DNA from: Parietichytrium sp. I65-24A
Lineage: Eukaryota > Sar > Bigyra > Thraustochytrida > Thraustochytriidae
Reading direction: 5' to 3'
Length of the DNA: 64,000 nt
Assembly (NCBI GenBank): GCA_012862575.1
Contig: BLSF01000025.1
Coordinates: 492,196 to 556,195, forward strand
Within the stretch, counting starts at the first letter, position 1; every line of letters starts with the position of its first letter. Below the pieces are notes generated by a model that saw only the letters and a program-made list of their open reading frames with translations, was not told the DNA's origin and did no database searches. A program made the position numbers and the translations under genes. Positions 51,558 through 62,359 of this stretch are shown here, one piece after another.

Positions 51558-51558
51558 N
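51558..51558. other. Single N, scaffold join
   Basis: An ambiguous base directly follows a perfect tandem repeat, as expected where assembly could not resolve the array. Confidence 0.8.
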
Positions 51559-52083: not shown

Positions 52084-52941
52084 TCAAAAGAGCTTGTGCG
52101 AGAAAATGTTGTCAACCGCTCCGATGCCGTTACCTGTTAGTAGGCTCGTTCCGACGGCAAGATAGTCTTCTCTATGAAGTGACCTACGTTGTTGCGAAGC
52201 CGCGATAGCCGCCTGTGCTGCCGCCTGTGCTGCCGCGGCCTCCTCTTTCGCCTTTTGTAGTTTGTCGAGGGTATCTTTCACTTTCTCCTCACTGGCGATC
52301 AGAGCTTTCTTCGTTTCTGGGTCGACCTTGAAGTCTATTTTTGGAGGAACCGCAGCACGTGGGATGGTATTCGATGGAGCCAGCAGAATGAAATTCCTCA
52401 AGTCCTGTGGAAGTGGCGACAGTACGTTGTCGCGGTCAGCAAGATCTGGCATATCCGGGCGGTAAAAAACAGAGTTTGGTTTGCGATTGAGCGCCGCAAA
52501 CTGCTCCGCTTCGAACTTGACCCTCGTCTCTTGGTCTTGAAGGAGAGAGAGCATCCTCAGTGAGCATTTGTTGAGGATGATTCTGTACTGGAGCGGGTGC
52601 TTGATAGCGGCCAATAGGGAGGCAACGGGTTCCAAATCAACAGCGGAAACGCGACCAGCGCGAGGCACCAGAACAAATAACAGGTTGATTGGAATATTCG
52701 CCACCATCTTGCTTCGAACCATGTCTGCGACGAGATCGCTCAGGACCGAATCACGAACGCCAGGAAGGTCAAGGTCAATGACCTCGAATTCACCTTCACC
52801 CACGTAATGTGGCTTCATATCTGGGATCTTGCCTCCACCAAGAGAAAAGCCACTTTCTGTAACAATTCGTCCGACAAGCCCGTTCACAATAGTGGACTTG
52901 CCGCACCCAACATCTCCAACCAAAACAATTCGTCCCTTCAT
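52084..52941 (-). CDS. AIG1/GIMAP-like GTPase (285 aa)
   Basis: The ATG at 52941 starts just before the P-loop. The frame is open 47 codons further upstream (basic, Lys/Arg/Gln-rich) but only from a TTG, so an upstream exon is possible. G1 is GDVGCGKST (9-17), G3 is DLDLPG (56-61), and a G4-like ILNKCS (122-127) lacks the final Asp of NKxD. A core beta strand, INLLFVLVPRAGR, precedes G4. After the G domain comes an Ala/Glu-rich coiled coil (KEEAAAAQAAAQAAIAASQQ) and the motif RRSLHREDY near the C-terminus. GIMAP/AIG1 proteins are GTPases of membranes and immune-type responses; here the family call is by motif order only. It is head-to-head with a related gene at 54077. Confidence 0.7.
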   Translation of the reverse strand: MKGRIVLVGDVGCGKSTIVNGLVGRIVTESGFSLGGGKIPDMKPHYVGEGEFEVIDLDLPGVRDSVLSDLVADMVRSKMVANIPINLLFVLVPRAGRVSAVDLEPVASLLAAIKHPLQYRIILNKCSLRMLSLLQDQETRVKFEAEQFAALNRKPNSVFYRPDMPDLADRDNVLSPLPQDLRNFILLAPSNTIPRAAVPPKIDFKVDPETKKALIASEEKVKDTLDKLQKAKEEAAAAQAAAQAAIAASQQRRSLHREDYLAVGTSLLTGNGIGAVDNIFSHKLF

Positions 52942-53174
52942 TCTCACTTGGGGTATTTCTTCTACGTTTTGCACGCGGCTGTTTTGTCTTTGTTTCTTTC
53001 TTTTTCTTTTTGATTGGTGTTCCGGTTCTGCCGCTAGAGAAACAATCCCTTCCAAAGCGTGAAAGTTTTCCAAAGTCAACAAAAATTATACAGCGTGATT
53101 ATTTTCTATGTGTTTCCTAAACACACTTTGTAGGATTGACTAAAATTATATATTTTTATAGACTAAGACTAAAT

Positions 53175-54076: not shown

Positions 54077-54970
54077 ATGCAGCATCCCAATGATGTGCCA
54101 CCCATCGCCTTCGAATTGCTCGCCACTATCTTGAAGCCGATTTGGATTTTAATCGCAGTTTGCGGATCTGGAAAGACGTGCCTCATCAACTCGTACCTCG
54201 GTAAAGTGATTGGGCGGTCCGGCGTGTCCATTGGCGGAGGGATTCTAGGTGACTTCAAGTTTCACGACTGCGGTGCCTTCTTCGTGTTGGATCTCTCCGG
54301 CTTCCCGGATGCCTTCTCCAATGACCAAGTTATTGCATTGCTGATGAAGTTGCTTCGCTCGGGAAAGCAGCTCAAGATCACTACAATGGCGATGGCGAGA
54401 CACGGACGCCTAGGACAGGAGATGTTTTTACCGATGGCCGCTGTACTCAACGCCATTAAAAATCATAGAGTTGTCGTCAAATTTTCCCTCATACTCAACG
54501 GTTGCCCCCAGCCCATGATGCAGCTAGCTGAGCCTGGGTTCGAGGATGCAAGGAAGAAATTTGAGACCGCCCTTACCAAGGTCTTTGACGGCAACCAGCC
54601 CCAGGAAGTGTATTTTCTCCCACACAGAGAAGAACTCCACGGTAAGGAGAACGCTATGATGAAGCTGGACCAGAACTTTTATGCCTTTGTGAACCGCGTC
54701 CCCGTGTCTGAGATCCCACCTTCGGACGTATCCGATGTGCGCGCTGATCTCACTTTGGTCACTGAAAAGCTAACCCAAGTGAAGACGGAGCTTGACTCTG
54801 CCAACACAACCATCAGAGAAATGATTCAGAAGATTTTCGACGATCGTCCTACTGCCCCGAATGGTCGGCGAAGCATGCACCGCGCAGATTATGCACAGTT
54901 GCTCCAGATCGCCTTTACCAATCCCTTCGCGATTCCATTTTTTCTGGGCGAGTTTGACTTCAGCTTCTAA
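54077..54970 (+). CDS. Divergent GIMAP-like NTPase paralogue with degenerate G motifs (297 aa)
   Basis: ATG at 54077. Its collinear similarity to the 52084 gene covers a P-loop (AVCGSGKTCLINSYLG versus GDVGCGKSTIVNGLVG), the following SGVSIGGGI versus SGFSLGGGK, a G3-like VLDLSGFPD, a strand KFSLILNGCPQP at the G4 position, and the shared C-terminal RRSMHRADY motif. Key losses are the first Gly of the P-loop (Ala-27) and the Lys of NK at G4 (Gly), while GKT is kept. It may bind nucleotide poorly or with altered specificity. A coiled segment (TLVTEKLTQVKTELDSANTT) precedes the shared motif, and a hydrophobic end (AFTNPFAIPFFLGEF) could touch membranes. Probably a pseudo- or low-activity partner of the divergent gene. 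Confidence 0.68.
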   Translation: MQHPNDVPPIAFELLATILKPIWILIAVCGSGKTCLINSYLGKVIGRSGVSIGGGILGDFKFHDCGAFFVLDLSGFPDAFSNDQVIALLMKLLRSGKQLKITTMAMARHGRLGQEMFLPMAAVLNAIKNHRVVVKFSLILNGCPQPMMQLAEPGFEDARKKFETALTKVFDGNQPQEVYFLPHREELHGKENAMMKLDQNFYAFVNRVPVSEIPPSDVSDVRADLTLVTEKLTQVKTELDSANTTIREMIQKIFDDRPTAPNGRRSMHRADYAQLLQIAFTNPFAIPFFLGEFDFSF

Positions 54971-55903
54971 GCGAGCATCCTTTCGTTCACGGCCCCCATC
55001 CGCGAGGCTTGACTCTTTTTTCATGGCGTATATCAATCAATCAATCAATCAATCAATGGGGGTATATAAATCAATCAATATCAAATTCAGATTTAAATTC
55101 AAAATGAATGCATTTCTTTTGTTGCCAAAATCGATCCAATATTCCGAATTTGTATTTATTTTTCCACTCCCGCACAGACTTTGCTGCTCTTCACAAATGA
55201 ACATGACAACGATCCAAACTATCACGCAAGGTCCATGGTTCGACTCACTTTAGCAAACCGAATTTTTGTGTAATCCTTTTTCTTCCTCCATCCCCCTGTG
55301 ACGCTTTTAGTAAGTCTCAAGGAGTAGGAGGAGTTGGATACGGGAAACACTGAGGGGTGGCTGCACAAAGAGGGTGCTACTGGTGGTGATATAACTGGTA
55401 GTAAGACCGCTTCTATAAGAGCGTATATCTTACAACCAAACACACCGCGTAGACGTATAAGTCATTTCGTATGAATGTATGTATAGCTATTCGACTTAGT
55501 CGTTTATTCAAAAAATACTTTATACTGCTAGCCAAAAAATGTTATCTAAATCGTTATCAGTAAAACTAAAACTCGCATCACACACACATGCGTGGCACGC
55601 GCGTGCCCGTGCACAACTGAGCAAGACGACTCACTACCGCCATAACAACATCAACAATAATAACCGCAACCGCAGGAGCAGTGGCAGGAGCAGTGGCAGG
55701 AGCAGTGGCAGGAGCAGTGGCAGGAGCAGTGGCAGGAGCAGTGGCAGGAGCAGTGGCAGGAGCAGTGGCAGGAGCAGTGGCAGGAGCAAGGCCTTTGACA
55801 CACCTGTGCACACGGGCATCGTCGCGCTCTTGGAACCTGTAGAAAGTAGGCGGCAGAGAAGGACCGAGTTGCGTGATTCGGTGATCGCGGCGTGCGTGAG
55901 CCG
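54971..55903. other. Intergenic region with simple repeats
   Basis: Contains the (TCAA)n tract at 55033-55058 and the 12-bp minisatellite. An open frame through the minisatellite is explained by its unit length and is not called. Confidence 0.5.
55673..55788. repeat. 12-bp minisatellite (AGGAGCAGTGGC)n
   Basis: About 9.5 perfect units roughly 120 bp before the start of the 1832-aa gene. Confidence 0.95.
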
Positions 55904-58900
55904 ATGGAGAACTATGATGATCTGCCTCATTATGAGCCGATGGAGGACTATTCTGATGTGCCTCGTTATGAAGGGGACTACAGCGCCTGGAGACTCTCCT
56001 TTCTGGACTGGAAGGAGCGGAAGTTTGGAGGCAATGTACAATCAATGTCCTTGGCTCTTCGTACCTCTTTCAATATATATGGCCATATCGCTGAATCATT
56101 CGACAGTAGAGTGGCCAATTCTGCTGCCTGGCGTGTTCTGGAAGAATACTTCGCCAACCTTGAAATTGTCGAACTAAAGGCAATGGTACATCTTTTCAGA
56201 AGTTTAATTACTTCCCCATCGGAGTCGGACAACTGGAAATCTAATGTAACCATACGATTCGAAAGGTTGCAAAGGGTCGCCAAAAATAAATTTACTGTAA
56301 AGAGTTTTGCTAACCGCATCGCATGGAGTTTAGGTCAAGACGGTGGTTCTCTTTGCGGATTACTCTATGACATAGGATACAGGAATACTGAAGTGACATT
56401 TGACGCTTTTGTCGAAGAAGTGTGGAGTGAAATGGTTCTTGATCCAGGAAACGAAGAGCTTGATCTATTGTCACCTCTCGAAGACTTTGAGTCCCTTCGA
56501 CAACCAGAAGGTGACACACGCAACCCCGTCAGCCGGCAGAACTACACCTCTGCTTTTGTATACGCAATTGAATGTTTAAACTATCCCTCGATAGAAGTCC
56601 CGTCTCATGACAATGTTATTGACGTGGGATACCGTGAGGAGATGAGCGATACCGCCTTAAACCTTTTCACCACGCATACGTTTGTAAGTGATAATGAGAG
56701 CAATATCTGGAACAGAAACCACGTATGCGGGAATACACAACCACAACAATTATGTGTTTCTCGGCAAGATTGGAGTCGTACACCCATCATTAGAGATCCA
56801 CTCCGAATTGCCATTGGCGTTGATGGCTATGTGAGATTGTGTGAATTCATGAAAGGCAACCGCGCCAATTTGGCAAATCTCACAGGTCCCACAGGTCCCA
56901 CAGGTCTCACAGGTGTGAACCCTATAATATTGTCGGACGAGTGGGGACGCGAGCTCTTGCAGATTCGCGAGGCTTTCGGTTTACTTTCGTCTATCCGTAA
57001 CAGGTATAATGCGGAGGGTAAAAACAGTACGGAATGGAGATTGGCGGTTGAGAATGTATTAGACTGTGTCGCCAGAGTAAGGGGGCAGATGTCCTTGGAT
57101 GCAAGCAACGAGGCCCGAATTAATCGCCTAAGATGTATTATTGCTTCTTATCCTGGCAACAATGGTGTTGGTGGGAATGGCGAAGCGGGAGGTGGAGGAG
57201 GTGGTGGTGGTGGTGAGATTGGCCGTGACGGAGGTGGCAACAATGGTGGTGGATACGATGGTGATGGTGGTAATTCTGGTGGCGGCGGTATCGATGACGC
57301 CCTTCTCGTTGGAGGATTCACTCTAGATAATGATGTTTATATGGATGGTTTCAGTGATACTCCCCTCAGAGTAGATGTAGAGGAGCGCGCAGAGTTGTCG
57401 ACGCCGGTGCTGGAACGAATGGTTCAGGATACAATAAACTTCAGGAGATTTATTAGCTCTTGTGCTCACGGGCGGCTAAACCTAGCGATCCGCATTTACA
57501 ACTTGGCGCTAAATGGAGCGGCTGAAAAGTACTTTAACTGTTTGGCCTTGCGCATCGCGGTGGAATGCAATCAACTACAGGTTGTACGCTGGTTACTCGC
57601 TTTGCCATTCTCCGATCCCTACGTTGTTGATGTCGACAGCAGTGAAGTGGCTCTGGAGATTAAAGAGGTACTCGAACAAGCCAAGTCACCGCTTGGACGA
57701 GCCAAAATTGTCATCGATCAAATAAACGAGTCGGACATTTCAGCTCCTGAAATACCTTTTGACGGGTGGTCCAGTGATGGTTTTACAAGAGGGATTGAAT
57801 CACAAGTGGGTTATGCGTGGTTTTTCAGGACTACAAAAGAGGTTGATGTGTGGACTTCAAGGATTCAGCGAAAAGATCTAGTTTATGCACTGAAAGCTTG
57901 GGTAAGTGGTATCAAAATACCCAGTCACGACCTACCAGGACCGGACAGTGGGTACAAGCGGATGGTGTGTGAGCTGGCGCAACACCTTGATCGCCAGAAC
58001 TTTGAGGCGGAGTTTTGTCAACGACTTTCTTTCGATGCATATTATGGTCTAGATGAATACATGACGAACTTGAGAAGATATGGTACCAAAGTTTCGGTCG
58101 TCATTGGAAAAGAAGAGACCATCAAATACTTAACGAAGTGCATCGCGAAGTCTCCTCCTGCTGGGGTGGTTCAGACACAGGGCATTGGCAAACACGATTT
58201 CTCAGTTCATTCATTACAACTTGACCATGTAAGCGACGCATACTACACTATGAGAAGAACTCGTGAAGACTACGCTTCGCACCGCATGGTGAGCCGCGAA
58301 TTGCGAAAACCGCATAGTATGGTGAGGCGAATCGTGGTTGTAATCGGCGAGCATGCTGATTCGTCTGATTGGGATAGACAATTTCGTAGCATCGCGGGAA
58401 TATTGATAGGCGCTGATATTCCCAGAGCGCTACTACTTGCTCATCTGCGAAATTTGGTACTGATTGTCACCTATAACAACATCAGTATTGACATGAAGGC
58501 GCTACGTGCAAAAGTAGTGGGGCGTCTCACTGATTATTTGCGAATGATGTTTGGAGGAGTATCTTCAGAAGTCATTTCTGAACTAGGGTATGGTAGCGTT
58601 TTGCCTCTATTGCTCTCCCCCGGCAACCGTCCCGATGATGAGTTTTCTGATGAGTTTTCTGACCAAAGCTACGCAAGCAGTGATGCATTTAGTCAAACCG
58701 TTAGTGCACAGATCGAGCAAATCTTCGAGGTGCTTCGTACTGATACCAAACTCACTCAGCAAGCAATCGAAGAGCAGGCAGCAAGCAAAGAACAAGACAA
58801 GTTTGACGAACAAAAAGACCGACGGAAGGACGGACAATCAGAGACAATGGCGACTCAATCGAAGATGCACTCAATTTTAGGCAACACCCGTGATGGGAAA

Positions 58901-61402
58901 AGTACCTTGATCGCCTACATCGCGAAGTATTCTGGCCAGGATGCAGCTGAGGCTCTGAGGCCAGACCTTGGACAGTACTCCTCGGCTCGCTTTCTGGTAC
59001 TTGACCAAATAATGGAGGACCACTTTGCTGTCGAGAGCCAGCCGCTTCGCGTCTCGCAGACGAACGCTCAAGTCGACATGACCGAGATGTACCGCGTGTT
59101 TCAGAGTTTCGGGATTCCAGTGGGCCGCATCGTGCTTGTTGTAAGCATGAGCACGGACGTGCCCGAATTGGACTTTGAGAGCTCCAAGTGCACGGAAATC
59201 GCGGAGAGTGTAAAGAACATGCTCGCATGTATTCCATCTCATCTCAGGGACGTGAAGCAGGCTCTATTGAAAAGCTTGGTGCTGGTTGCGACTTATCGCG
59301 TTCCCAACGCGGACAGTGAGACTCTTCAAAGGGCGGACGAGGTCATCTCAGAGAAAATGATTTCCGCAGCGGACCATCTCAAGTCCTTTTTACGACCCTT
59401 CTTTCCAGACATGCAAGAGGCGTTTGCAGATGGCACTATTCTGGGCGCTGAAAGCGTGTTCCCTCTGGCACTCTTTTTTGGTAGGCAGCCTCCAGAGGGC
59501 ACAGCCGTGACGAACGACTACGATCCAACCTACGCTGGCACCGACGAAAGCCGAATTTTGTTCAACCAAACCGTTGGAAATCAAGTTGAACGCATTTCAA
59601 CCGCGCTCCGTGAGCGCCCAGCAAACGTAAATTTGCCACGCGCAGAGAGCGACCCGAGCGCCGGTGTAATGCTTCACGAGCTTCTGGGCCACCATCGCAA
59701 TGTTGGCACGGTTCCCGGTCCCCTTGGACAACACCTTGTATGCAAGCCAAAGCTGGAGGTCGCGATGCGTTCTGAGCCTGTCGCAACCGCTCCTCCATAT
59801 GGCGCTCTTCGGCGTGAAGTGCGAGCTTATGAGACCCACGAGACCTCGGAGGAGATTTTTCAGCGAGTACAGTCCAGCTCTCGCACGATCAATGGCACAG
59901 TTGGATTTCAGGGTTTTGTCTCGCTCACTGCAGAGGAGGCCTCTAGGCGTTATGCGCGCCAGGAAACCAAGGCACAGAGCGACTCGACCTCCGTTGGCTG
60001 TGTGGCCGATACCTACTACGTGACCCACCAAGTTCACGCATCTGACGTTTTGGCTGTCTTGCCTCCTATTGTCAAGCTTGTGGAAAAAGTCGTAGGGCAC
60101 GTTACAGCCAACGAGTTTGCTGAGGCACGAGTAGCGATTCGTGAACTTTATCGTGAGGCGCCATCGGTGCCATTTGGTGACGTGCTGTTTGGTGTTGGCG
60201 TTTTCTCCTCGGCATGTTTTTCGCGTGACCGCAAAAACACAAGCGAGGTAAATATCACCACTGCTCAGAACCGTGGCAGAGCACGTATAGAAGCCGCATA
60301 CGAAGTCCTGAATGCCAATGCAGCAGCGAAGTGGCATACACTCACGACCGAGAATCTAGCGATTCGCTCCAGTCGGGACGACGCCCACGCCCGGTATAGC
60401 GAACGCATTGTTGTTGCCGACGAGCGAAACGGTACTTCCATACCTGGGTTATTGTGCGTCGAGTCAGTCCTCTGGTCAGCATTGTTTGCAAATGGAGACA
60501 GAGAGCGGCTGGCCGCCATGGGTTTGGTAGCTCTCACGGACATCGCTCCGGATGTGCGAGACAGACTCCACGCCATTGCATTGGACACGGAGGGAGTGAT
60601 TGAAATTGCTGGCGGTACATCGCTGACGTTGGAAAACATCAAAATTAATCGTCCCGACTGCAACATCCGTATCGTTGCGGATAATTCGATTCTTTTAAAG
60701 GACAGCCTGCTTATCGGAGCCAACGTCACACTGCACACGAGGGATACGGACAATAATTCCGTGGTCAAGATCGAGGGCGGACGGACGGACACATTCAATT
60801 CTTGCACAGGGTCCTGGGGTCATTATCATCGAAAAACCTACTATCACTCCACAGTATGTCTTGCCGCCTCTGCAAAGCTACAAATTGTCGGAGACCAAGT
60901 CGCCTTGCACCGCTCCATCTGTCATGCCGGAGTCTTGAATGTAGATTGCTCCGCTGCTCTCTCATTGCGAGAAAGCATTTTGCTTGCCGACCGGGGTGGT
61001 CACGTGAAGGCTGAAGAGTTAGTGCTTTTTCAACCGATGATAGATGACATGCCCAGAACATATGCGTTGGCAGACAATTACGATGTGCAATGGGACCTCC
61101 CAAGTACTTCGCCATCTCTTCTCGGATCTACAGCCCTGTCATTGCAAGTGCAATTGGGTCGCCCGCCAGCCATGGGGATGGGATTGTTCACGCGTAACGT
61201 CAACCCGCCTATCTTGGGGCAAAAATTTGCAAAGCCATTTTTTAACCACGCGTGGCATCGACTCGGTCACGACGGTCCTTTTCTTGACCATAATCCTCGG
61301 ATTCGCACGATGTACAACATTCGTCTACAAGCGTTTGGCGGCGAATGCCCCGCGCAGCTCATTGACGCCATTGAAGCTGCCGTCAAGGATAGCAAACGAT
61401 AA
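55904..61402 (+). CDS. 1832-aa multidomain protein with tandem pseudo-NTPase and P-loop NTPase domains
   Basis: Intronless, from the ATG at 55904 (MENYDDLPHYEPMEDYSDVP); the frame is open to a GTG 4 codons earlier. Order: a helical N-terminus (~30-200); a small GPTGPTGLTG stretch (~327-337); a Gly-rich linker (~418-463); an ankyrin-like pair (~511-571; HGRLNLAIRIYNLA, LRIAVECNQLQVVRWLLALP); then two homologous domains. Domain 1 (~726-980) has GKEETIKYL where a P-loop should be. Domain 2 (~985-1245) has an intact Walker A, GNTRDGKST (993-1001). They align through VVVIGEHAD/VLVVSMSTD, VLIVTYN/VLVATYR, VLPLLLSPGNRP/VFPLALFFGRQP and QTVSAQIEQI/QTVGNQVERI. A region of unknown type (~1250-1555) and a beta-helix-like tail (~1560-1680; IEIAGGTSLTLENIKI) follow. 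No signal peptide. Probably a cytosolic NTPase machine; function unknown. Confidence 0.75.
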   Translation: MENYDDLPHYEPMEDYSDVPRYEGDYSAWRLSFLDWKERKFGGNVQSMSLALRTSFNIYGHIAESFDSRVANSAAWRVLEEYFANLEIVELKAMVHLFRSLITSPSESDNWKSNVTIRFERLQRVAKNKFTVKSFANRIAWSLGQDGGSLCGLLYDIGYRNTEVTFDAFVEEVWSEMVLDPGNEELDLLSPLEDFESLRQPEGDTRNPVSRQNYTSAFVYAIECLNYPSIEVPSHDNVIDVGYREEMSDTALNLFTTHTFVSDNESNIWNRNHVCGNTQPQQLCVSRQDWSRTPIIRDPLRIAIGVDGYVRLCEFMKGNRANLANLTGPTGPTGLTGVNPIILSDEWGRELLQIREAFGLLSSIRNRYNAEGKNSTEWRLAVENVLDCVARVRGQMSLDASNEARINRLRCIIASYPGNNGVGGNGEAGGGGGGGGGEIGRDGGGNNGGGYDGDGGNSGGGGIDDALLVGGFTLDNDVYMDGFSDTPLRVDVEERAELSTPVLERMVQDTINFRRFISSCAHGRLNLAIRIYNLALNGAAEKYFNCLALRIAVECNQLQVVRWLLALPFSDPYVVDVDSSEVALEIKEVLEQAKSPLGRAKIVIDQINESDISAPEIPFDGWSSDGFTRGIESQVGYAWFFRTTKEVDVWTSRIQRKDLVYALKAWVSGIKIPSHDLPGPDSGYKRMVCELAQHLDRQNFEAEFCQRLSFDAYYGLDEYMTNLRRYGTKVSVVIGKEETIKYLTKCIAKSPPAGVVQTQGIGKHDFSVHSLQLDHVSDAYYTMRRTREDYASHRMVSRELRKPHSMVRRIVVVIGEHADSSDWDRQFRSIAGILIGADIPRALLLAHLRNLVLIVTYNNISIDMKALRAKVVGRLTDYLRMMFGGVSSEVISELGYGSVLPLLLSPGNRPDDEFSDEFSDQSYASSDAFSQTVSAQIEQIFEVLRTDTKLTQQAIEEQAASKEQDKFDEQKDRRKDGQSETMATQSKMHSILGNTRDGKSTLIAYIAKYSGQDAAEALRPDLGQYSSARFLVLDQIMEDHFAVESQPLRVSQTNAQVDMTEMYRVFQSFGIPVGRIVLVVSMSTDVPELDFESSKCTEIAESVKNMLACIPSHLRDVKQALLKSLVLVATYRVPNADSETLQRADEVISEKMISAADHLKSFLRPFFPDMQEAFADGTILGAESVFPLALFFGRQPPEGTAVTNDYDPTYAGTDESRILFNQTVGNQVERISTALRERPANVNLPRAESDPSAGVMLHELLGHHRNVGTVPGPLGQHLVCKPKLEVAMRSEPVATAPPYGALRREVRAYETHETSEEIFQRVQSSSRTINGTVGFQGFVSLTAEEASRRYARQETKAQSDSTSVGCVADTYYVTHQVHASDVLAVLPPIVKLVEKVVGHVTANEFAEARVAIRELYREAPSVPFGDVLFGVGVFSSACFSRDRKNTSEVNITTAQNRGRARIEAAYEVLNANAAAKWHTLTTENLAIRSSRDDAHARYSERIVVADERNGTSIPGLLCVESVLWSALFANGDRERLAAMGLVALTDIAPDVRDRLHAIALDTEGVIEIAGGTSLTLENIKINRPDCNIRIVADNSILLKDSLLIGANVTLHTRDTDNNSVVKIEGGRTDTFNSCTGSWGHYHRKTYYHSTVCLAASAKLQIVGDQVALHRSICHAGVLNVDCSAALSLRESILLADRGGHVKAEELVLFQPMIDDMPRTYALADNYDVQWDLPSTSPSLLGSTALSLQVQLGRPPAMGMGLFTRNVNPPILGQKFAKPFFNHAWHRLGHDGPFLDHNPRIRTMYNIRLQAFGGECPAQLIDAIEAAVKDSKR

Positions 61403-61420: not shown

Positions 61421-61889
61421 TCACGTGTAGGGTTGAACCAAAAGTTTGGCAACACATGCCTAATTCTTAGAATTTGGTGCCCGAACCTAAGACAACCTTG
61501 CGTTCTTGTGAGTATCAATGTCCAAGGAAGGCCAAATGAAAACTTGCTTGCCTTGCGCCAACCCTTCTGCAATCTGCATATGAACAGCCATGTCAGAGAG
61601 AACCAAATTTCTCGAGCTTAGAAATATTGGAGGCAGATCTGGCTTGCTGAACAGTTCGACGCCGTCTGACAAGGTGCGACTATTCAGCAAATCCAACGTC
61701 TGCTCCGACAAGACGCCGCGCCGAAGGTCGAGCACAATTTTAGCCAGCTGTCTGCCGCCTGGCGTTGGGAGGAAGCGATTCGCCTCGTACAGCTGGCACA
61801 CGTCCATCTGGAGCCATTGTTGTCGCCCGAGAAGCTGGAGATTATTTTGTTGTCTCCTCTCGTCGAATCCTGCTGAGATAATGTCCGTT
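61421..61889. repeat. First copy of a 469-bp exact duplication (contig overlap)
   Basis: Identical to 61891-62359 as far as I can read and separated from it by one N. Most likely the unmerged end of the left contig. Confidence 0.9.
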
Positions 61890-61890
61890 N
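61890..61890. other. Single N, scaffold join
   Basis: Placed exactly between two identical 469-bp copies; the base at the matching position of copy 2 (62360) is G. Confidence 0.9.
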
Positions 61891-62359
61891 TCACGTGTAG
61901 GGTTGAACCAAAAGTTTGGCAACACATGCCTAATTCTTAGAATTTGGTGCCCGAACCTAAGACAACCTTGCGTTCTTGTGAGTATCAATGTCCAAGGAAG
62001 GCCAAATGAAAACTTGCTTGCCTTGCGCCAACCCTTCTGCAATCTGCATATGAACAGCCATGTCAGAGAGAACCAAATTTCTCGAGCTTAGAAATATTGG
62101 AGGCAGATCTGGCTTGCTGAACAGTTCGACGCCGTCTGACAAGGTGCGACTATTCAGCAAATCCAACGTCTGCTCCGACAAGACGCCGCGCCGAAGGTCG
62201 AGCACAATTTTAGCCAGCTGTCTGCCGCCTGGCGTTGGGAGGAAGCGATTCGCCTCGTACAGCTGGCACACGTCCATCTGGAGCCATTGTTGTCGCCCGA
62301 GAAGCTGGAGATTATTTTGTTGTCTCCTCTCGTCGAATCCTGCTGAGATAATGTCCGTT
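61891..62359. repeat. Second copy of the 469-bp exact duplication (contig overlap)
   Basis: Start of the right contig, repeating 61421-61889. Only one copy should be counted when interpreting genes here. Confidence 0.9.

Follow-up and report, generated by a model that had tools for sequence, protein, structure and literature searches.

Proteins with more than one GTPase domain of the AIG1/GIMAP family have been published. GIMAP8 and the dual-AIG1 genes of Biomphalaria glabrata carry two or three G domains, and these papers also describe extra domains, genes in tandem clusters, and partial domains from which G1 or another motif is missing (PMC4201521; PMC7053062). A precedent of another kind is p190RhoGAP, where pseudoGTPase domains, which are G-domain-like and lack nucleotide binding, lie inside a large protein (PMC5593906). 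Tandem AIG1 domains and pseudoGTPase domains in general are already in the literature; a defined pair of one dead and one live domain would be new. Such a pair, with a lost nucleotide-binding site in its first half, had been proposed in an earlier note for a gene of Parietichytrium sp. I65-24A.

The window analyzed here, a stretch of 64,000 nucleotides, is the end of contig C25; the searched genome comprises 42.5 Mb in 172 contigs. The gene reads as one uninterrupted frame, just as the 1832-aa protein had been described (Table 1). Residue numbers are counted throughout from the possible GTG start, and those of the earlier note are lower by 4. Over the whole gene the codon signal is best in its own frame (0.041 vs. 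0.020 on the opposite strand), and it is lower than in the kinase, transporter, and N1/N2 genes of the window (0.09-0.11). Over the N-terminal 725 aa it is no higher than on the opposite strand (-0.012 vs. 0.016); for the second of the two units described below it reaches 0.158 in the true frame. The existence of a paralogue with shared modules is better evidence for a real gene than the codon signal. Nine exact copies of the 12-base repeat aggagcagtggc occupy window positions 55674-55781, ending about 120 bases before the ATG. Downstream, at 61421-62359, two identical copies of a 469-base stretch flank a lone N at 61890, an arrangement that suggests an assembly join and not a biological feature; a further N is found at 51558.

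Table 1. Features of the locus, in window coordinates.
Feature	Position	Strand	Evidence or remark
N1, AIG1/Toc-like GTPase (GDVGCGKS, DLPG)	52084-53082	-	MMR_HSR1 E 0.00026, AIG1 E 0.00099, both below cut-off
N2, paralogue of N1, first P-loop residue changed (AVCGSGKT)	54077-54970	+	SW 228 to N1, z 42; E 2e-20
Whole gene, single open frame	55904-61402	+	1832 aa from ATG; possible GTG start 55892, then 1836 aa
Module common to paralogue C61a, with WxxxHVC...C stretch	56591-57145	+	SW 342 vs. C61a N-terminal part, z 54.5; E 1.6e-27 in own genome
Gly-rich linker	57146-57307	+	Sequence
Ankyrin-like stretch	57401-57847	+	C61a, 38% identity over 152 aa; C61b, in part, 30% over 93 aa
Unit 1, N-terminal part, with GKEETIKYL, without Walker A	58079-58327	+	Alignment to unit 2 not clearly better than chance
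Unit 1, C-terminal part, first copy of duplicated segment	58328-58738	+	Score 97, 0/5000 shuffles
Unit 2, N-terminal part, with P-loop and LVLD stretch	58859-59125	+	Two-unit profile P-loop match to own-genome AIG1 GTPases, 0/150 permutations
Walker A GNTRDGKS, sole GxxxxGK[ST] of the protein	58880-58903	+	Residues 997-1004
Unit 2, C-terminal part, second copy of duplicated segment	59126-59611	+	Split-alignment test; better modelled than N-terminal part
C-terminal segment with decayed relict elsewhere in genome	60287-60595	+	Relict at G000:C1:500059-500355

A duplication is directly observed within the protein. The comparison with shuffled sequences that had been suggested as a check was run, and units 1 and 2 align with a score of 104, which none of 2000 shuffles reaches (mean 33, maximum 62). 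In the single-unit profile comparison (45.0; 0/60 permutations), the aligned columns begin near one strand, RIVVV in unit 1 and RIVLV in unit 2, and the units were split there into N- and C-terminal parts. The C-terminal parts, residues 813-949 and 1079-1240, share 44 identities in 136 aligned pairs at a score that no shuffle equals; strong common motifs, SVxPLxL and FxQTVxxQxExI, lie in the last part of both units. Intragenic duplication is strongly supported by these alignments. The alignment had earlier been thought to extend along the length of both domains. For the C-terminal parts this stands, and all three motif pairs quoted in its favor are present there in each unit; for the N-terminal parts it does not, as their score of 30 is reached by 510 of 5000 shuffles, the chance level, with 17 identities in 78 aligned pairs.

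Such a boundary is what a partial duplication would leave. Under this explanation the copying was confined to the C-terminal segment of about 140 residues, a P-loop never existed in unit 1, and the common segment may be a binding or pairing module. Significant similarity indeed begins only at the RIVVV/RIVLV strand, the free N-terminal alignment is at chance, the best extensions from the anchor are not significant (141/1200 and 185/1200), and the strong motifs fall in the last part. On the other hand, GK lies at almost the same distance from the anchor strand in the two units (74 and 77 residues), and GKxxxIxYxxK occurs in both. The anchored end-to-end alignment of the N-terminal parts is borderline (242/5000 and 109/5000 by the length used), and 9 of 311 other segments taken from this protein do equally well. 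We regard a purely partial duplication as possible, although rather unlikely. Given the nearly equal spacing, it is plausible that GKEETIKYL occupies the place of the Walker A motif, as had been asserted; with N-terminal parts aligning at chance level, the sequence does not decide this. Because these parts are not aligned clearly above chance, loss of a P-loop from unit 1 is unproven, and the claim that unit 1 is a former NTPase deprived of nucleotide binding finds no support in the sequence.

The protein has one Walker A motif, and it lies in the second unit and nowhere else, as stated earlier. GNTRDGKS fits the consensus in full, and 0.04 such motifs are expected by chance at this protein's composition. 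In AIG1/GIMAP GTPases the G3 motif is DxxG, and G4 is [NT]KxD or THxD. A motif search of both units (residues 726-1260) found none of these, and the label "active-type" given to unit 2 is not supported. The assignment of the units to the AIG1/GIMAP family (PF04548) was approached in the same way: G1, the Walker A motif, is present in unit 2 only, G3 and G4 are missing, and neither unit reaches the profile cut-off. The Pfam AIG1 profile matches neither of them even at E<=5, and it does match the paralogue.

Profile comparisons connect the tandem with AIG1 proteins through the P-loop. In permutation controls made via hhalign, with options other than those of the remaining profile comparisons, so that scores differ somewhat between them, the two-unit profile scores 32.7 against seven AIG1 GTPases encoded in this genome and 34.7 against the neighbours N1/N2, in both cases with 0/150 column permutations. 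After removal of the P-loop from this profile, the score is reached by 52/60 (AIG1) and 41/60 (N1/N2) permutations; the profile of unit 1 alone gives 21/60 against N1/N2 and 3/60 against AIG1. As far as sequence profiles can tell, the signal linking unit 2 to AIG1 is the P-loop and what closely follows it, and a P-loop in unit 2 is likely. Two further matches were dropped. The C-terminal part of unit 2 against the GTPase of the paralogue (7/1000 shuffles, one of 17 tests) is not collinear, and the match of a four-row profile, A8, to midasin chains in PDB (E 0.0003-0.0085) spans only positions 7-30, the P-loop.

Two explanations make less of this motif. First, it could be a chance match, the repeated unit being an unrelated alpha/beta (Rossmann-like) domain: the expectation of 0.04 is not negligible, and dehydrogenases and TIM-barrel enzymes appear at similar E in the structure searches, among the matches listed. 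Against it stand the profile matches to AIG1 and to N1/N2, which no permutation reaches, and the AIG1 character of the paralogue and the neighbours, and we consider it improbable. Second, both units could be degenerate, so that the entire tandem would be a pseudo-NTPase scaffold with the Walker A of unit 2 as a relict. This agrees with the absence of G3 and G4 motifs from both units and with the lower conservation of the P-loop half between them (17/78 vs. 44/136), and less well with a complete consensus flanked in each model by a strand and a helix, at low confidence there; such general decay seems to us unlikely, if somewhat less so than a chance motif.

AlphaFold models of unit 2 built from two and four sequences are both weak (pLDDT 51 and 56, pTM 0.53 and 0.57). 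Their P-loop half is mostly below pLDDT 50, and the C-terminal part has ten-residue means of about 42-76 and 47-79, respectively. Both models show a strand, the P-loop, a helix, and then three more strand-helix steps, with GNTRDGKS between strand and helix at low confidence. Foldseek searches of PDB returned 740 and 1435 rows at E<=10, none of them at E<=0.001. Among the matches listed, GTPases are absent from the top rows of the first search; in the second they share similar ranks with Rossmann dehydrogenases. Within the best 50 of the 1435 rows of the second search, five of the six with the highest probability (0.80-0.91) are GTPases: EF2 three times, SelB, and LeoA. A G-domain fold of unit 2 is suggested by context.

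This context comes from the same genome. Queried with the whole protein, it yields two places besides the gene itself, a paralogue and a decayed piece on contig C1; a second copy of the tandem was not detected at E<=1. The paralogue C61a (L004:2761-6795, 1344 aa) has the WxxxHVC module and the ankyrin-like part in common with our protein, and its alignment in Table 1 runs on through the latter. It ends in a true AIG1 GTPase (E 3.8e-14) with GKTGSGKT, DSPG, and THVD, and its C-terminus is CAIL. Two further frames of AIG1 type have the endings CTVM (L017) and CTIS (L020); we take all three to be CaaX-like. The paralogue also carries the internal peptide repeats EVGTFADPFMASNNAGSPLP and SSEEELELDAMSEQDAK. 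The ankyrin-like part recurs in a third gene, C61b (L004:7485-9224, minus strand; SW 77, z 7). The C1 relict (G000:C1:500059-500355; L003:1501-1797) retains 52% over 103 aa with 3 stops and, in its best piece (L005:3566-3712), 86% over 49 aa with 1 stop; a decayed piece of C61b on contig C54 (L032:1504-1764) retains 76% over 88 aa. These fragments point to duplication and loss.

The AIG1 profile finds 11 places in the genome, 8 of them over the cut-off; 7 of these 8, all but the one on contig C7, were read as frames. As the same profile has matches in all 14 control prokaryote genomes (8 over the cut-off), a match alone shows only a GTPase of a broad kind. Upstream of the gene are the two neighbours, N1 at 2.8 kb and N2 at 0.9 kb. 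No Pfam family matches N2 at E<=1, and the pair matches the AIG1 set, profile to profile, at E 1e-6. The best PDB rows of their profile are chains of GIMAP4, GIMAP7, and T7I23.11 (E 0.0045-0.015), the last presumably Toc-type. Elsewhere in the genome, a 5583-aa open frame (G000:C66:8562-22499) contains four stretches similar to the omega-3 synthase profile PfaA at about positions 176-516, which we take to be the ketosynthase; neither these nor any other match of this profile in the genome exceeds its cut-off.

The remaining parts of the protein were partly as described before. The Gly-rich part is present. The ankyrin-like part is weak, with an Ank_5 match (E=0.032) below the cut-off, but it is common to the paralogue. 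The proposed beta-helix-like part finds no support in the sequence searches: the C-terminal 576 aa has no Pfam match at E<=5 and two chance PDB rows only. A GxYxxW stretch opens both this protein (window 55961-56581) and the paralogue (L004:2845-3480) and, we assume, recalls retrotransposon Gag. The Gag families of Pfam match neither stretch, and in the genome the first has no other place and that of the paralogue only the paralogue's internal repeats.

That no named family has this architecture holds within the searches made, which covered Pfam, NCBIfam, PHROGs, viral and prokaryote-genome contigs, and PDB sequences. With the whole protein as query, no Pfam or NCBIfam family was matched at E<=1, and two scans of viral contigs and one of prokaryote-genome contigs gave no relative at tblastn E<=1e-3. 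Two PHROGs rows (E 0.32 and 0.46) were judged to be chance. The 15 rows of a phmmer search against PDB (E 0.047-8.1) all fall in residues 392-489 around the Gly-rich part and include no relative, and the two-unit profile gave one PDB row only, at E 1.5. Titles and abstract openings of the open literature, under the terms searched, contain no description of this architecture. Against the viral, prokaryote, and PDB sets the protein is apparently a lineage-specific orphan.

The architecture comprises an N-terminal module common to the paralogue, an ankyrin-like pair, two tandem alpha/beta units, and a C-terminal part without assigned family. A divergent AIG1-like domain is favored because the paralogue ends in a true AIG1 GTPase and the two neighbours are AIG1-like; most likely, unit 2 is a strongly diverged AIG1/Toc-like P-loop domain. 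The simplest account is an AIG1-associated multidomain gene family with gain, loss, and decay, in which a P-loop-like unit diverged here and was partly duplicated. Our leading explanation, held with somewhat less than even confidence, is a lineage-specific multidomain protein with unit 2 as a divergent AIG1/Toc-like P-loop domain and unit 1 as its duplicate, recognizable only in the C-terminal part. Unit 1 would have arisen by intragenic duplication, keeping only that part recognizable, and the two units may pack together through it as a built-in pair. Unit 2 may bind a nucleotide or have done so in the past, and partners may be bound by the ankyrin-like and C-terminal parts, so that the whole protein would be a GIMAP-type scaffold or switch, not an enzyme.

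GIMAP-type GTPases work in pairs. A bolder possibility, to which we give little credence, is an intramolecular pair in which a divergent AIG1-like P-loop domain has its own copy, without a nucleotide site, as a fixed partner or activator, within a rapidly turning-over, immunity-like multidomain family. If true, it would provide a one-chain model of how GIMAP-type GTPases act in pairs and add a further eukaryote lineage to those with tandem AIG1-like proteins. For now, and judged from its sequence, this is an orphan protein whose partial duplication is certain and whose NTPase origin is no more than plausible.

Among known systems, the paralogue is similar in having the upstream module and the ankyrin-like stretch, followed by a P-loop module downstream. 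It differs in its single canonical C-terminal AIG1 GTPase with CAIL, while the tandem unit is not detected in it and it has no long C-terminal part. In p190RhoGAP the fold and the binding defect rest on crystal structures and binding assays, whereas the present protein is known from sequence and weak models. The multi-AIG1 proteins, GIMAP8 and those of Biomphalaria glabrata, resemble it in having several AIG1 domains per protein, partial ones among them; here, in contrast, unit 2 is linked to AIG1 by the P-loop alone, the other G motifs are absent, and the modules are orphan.
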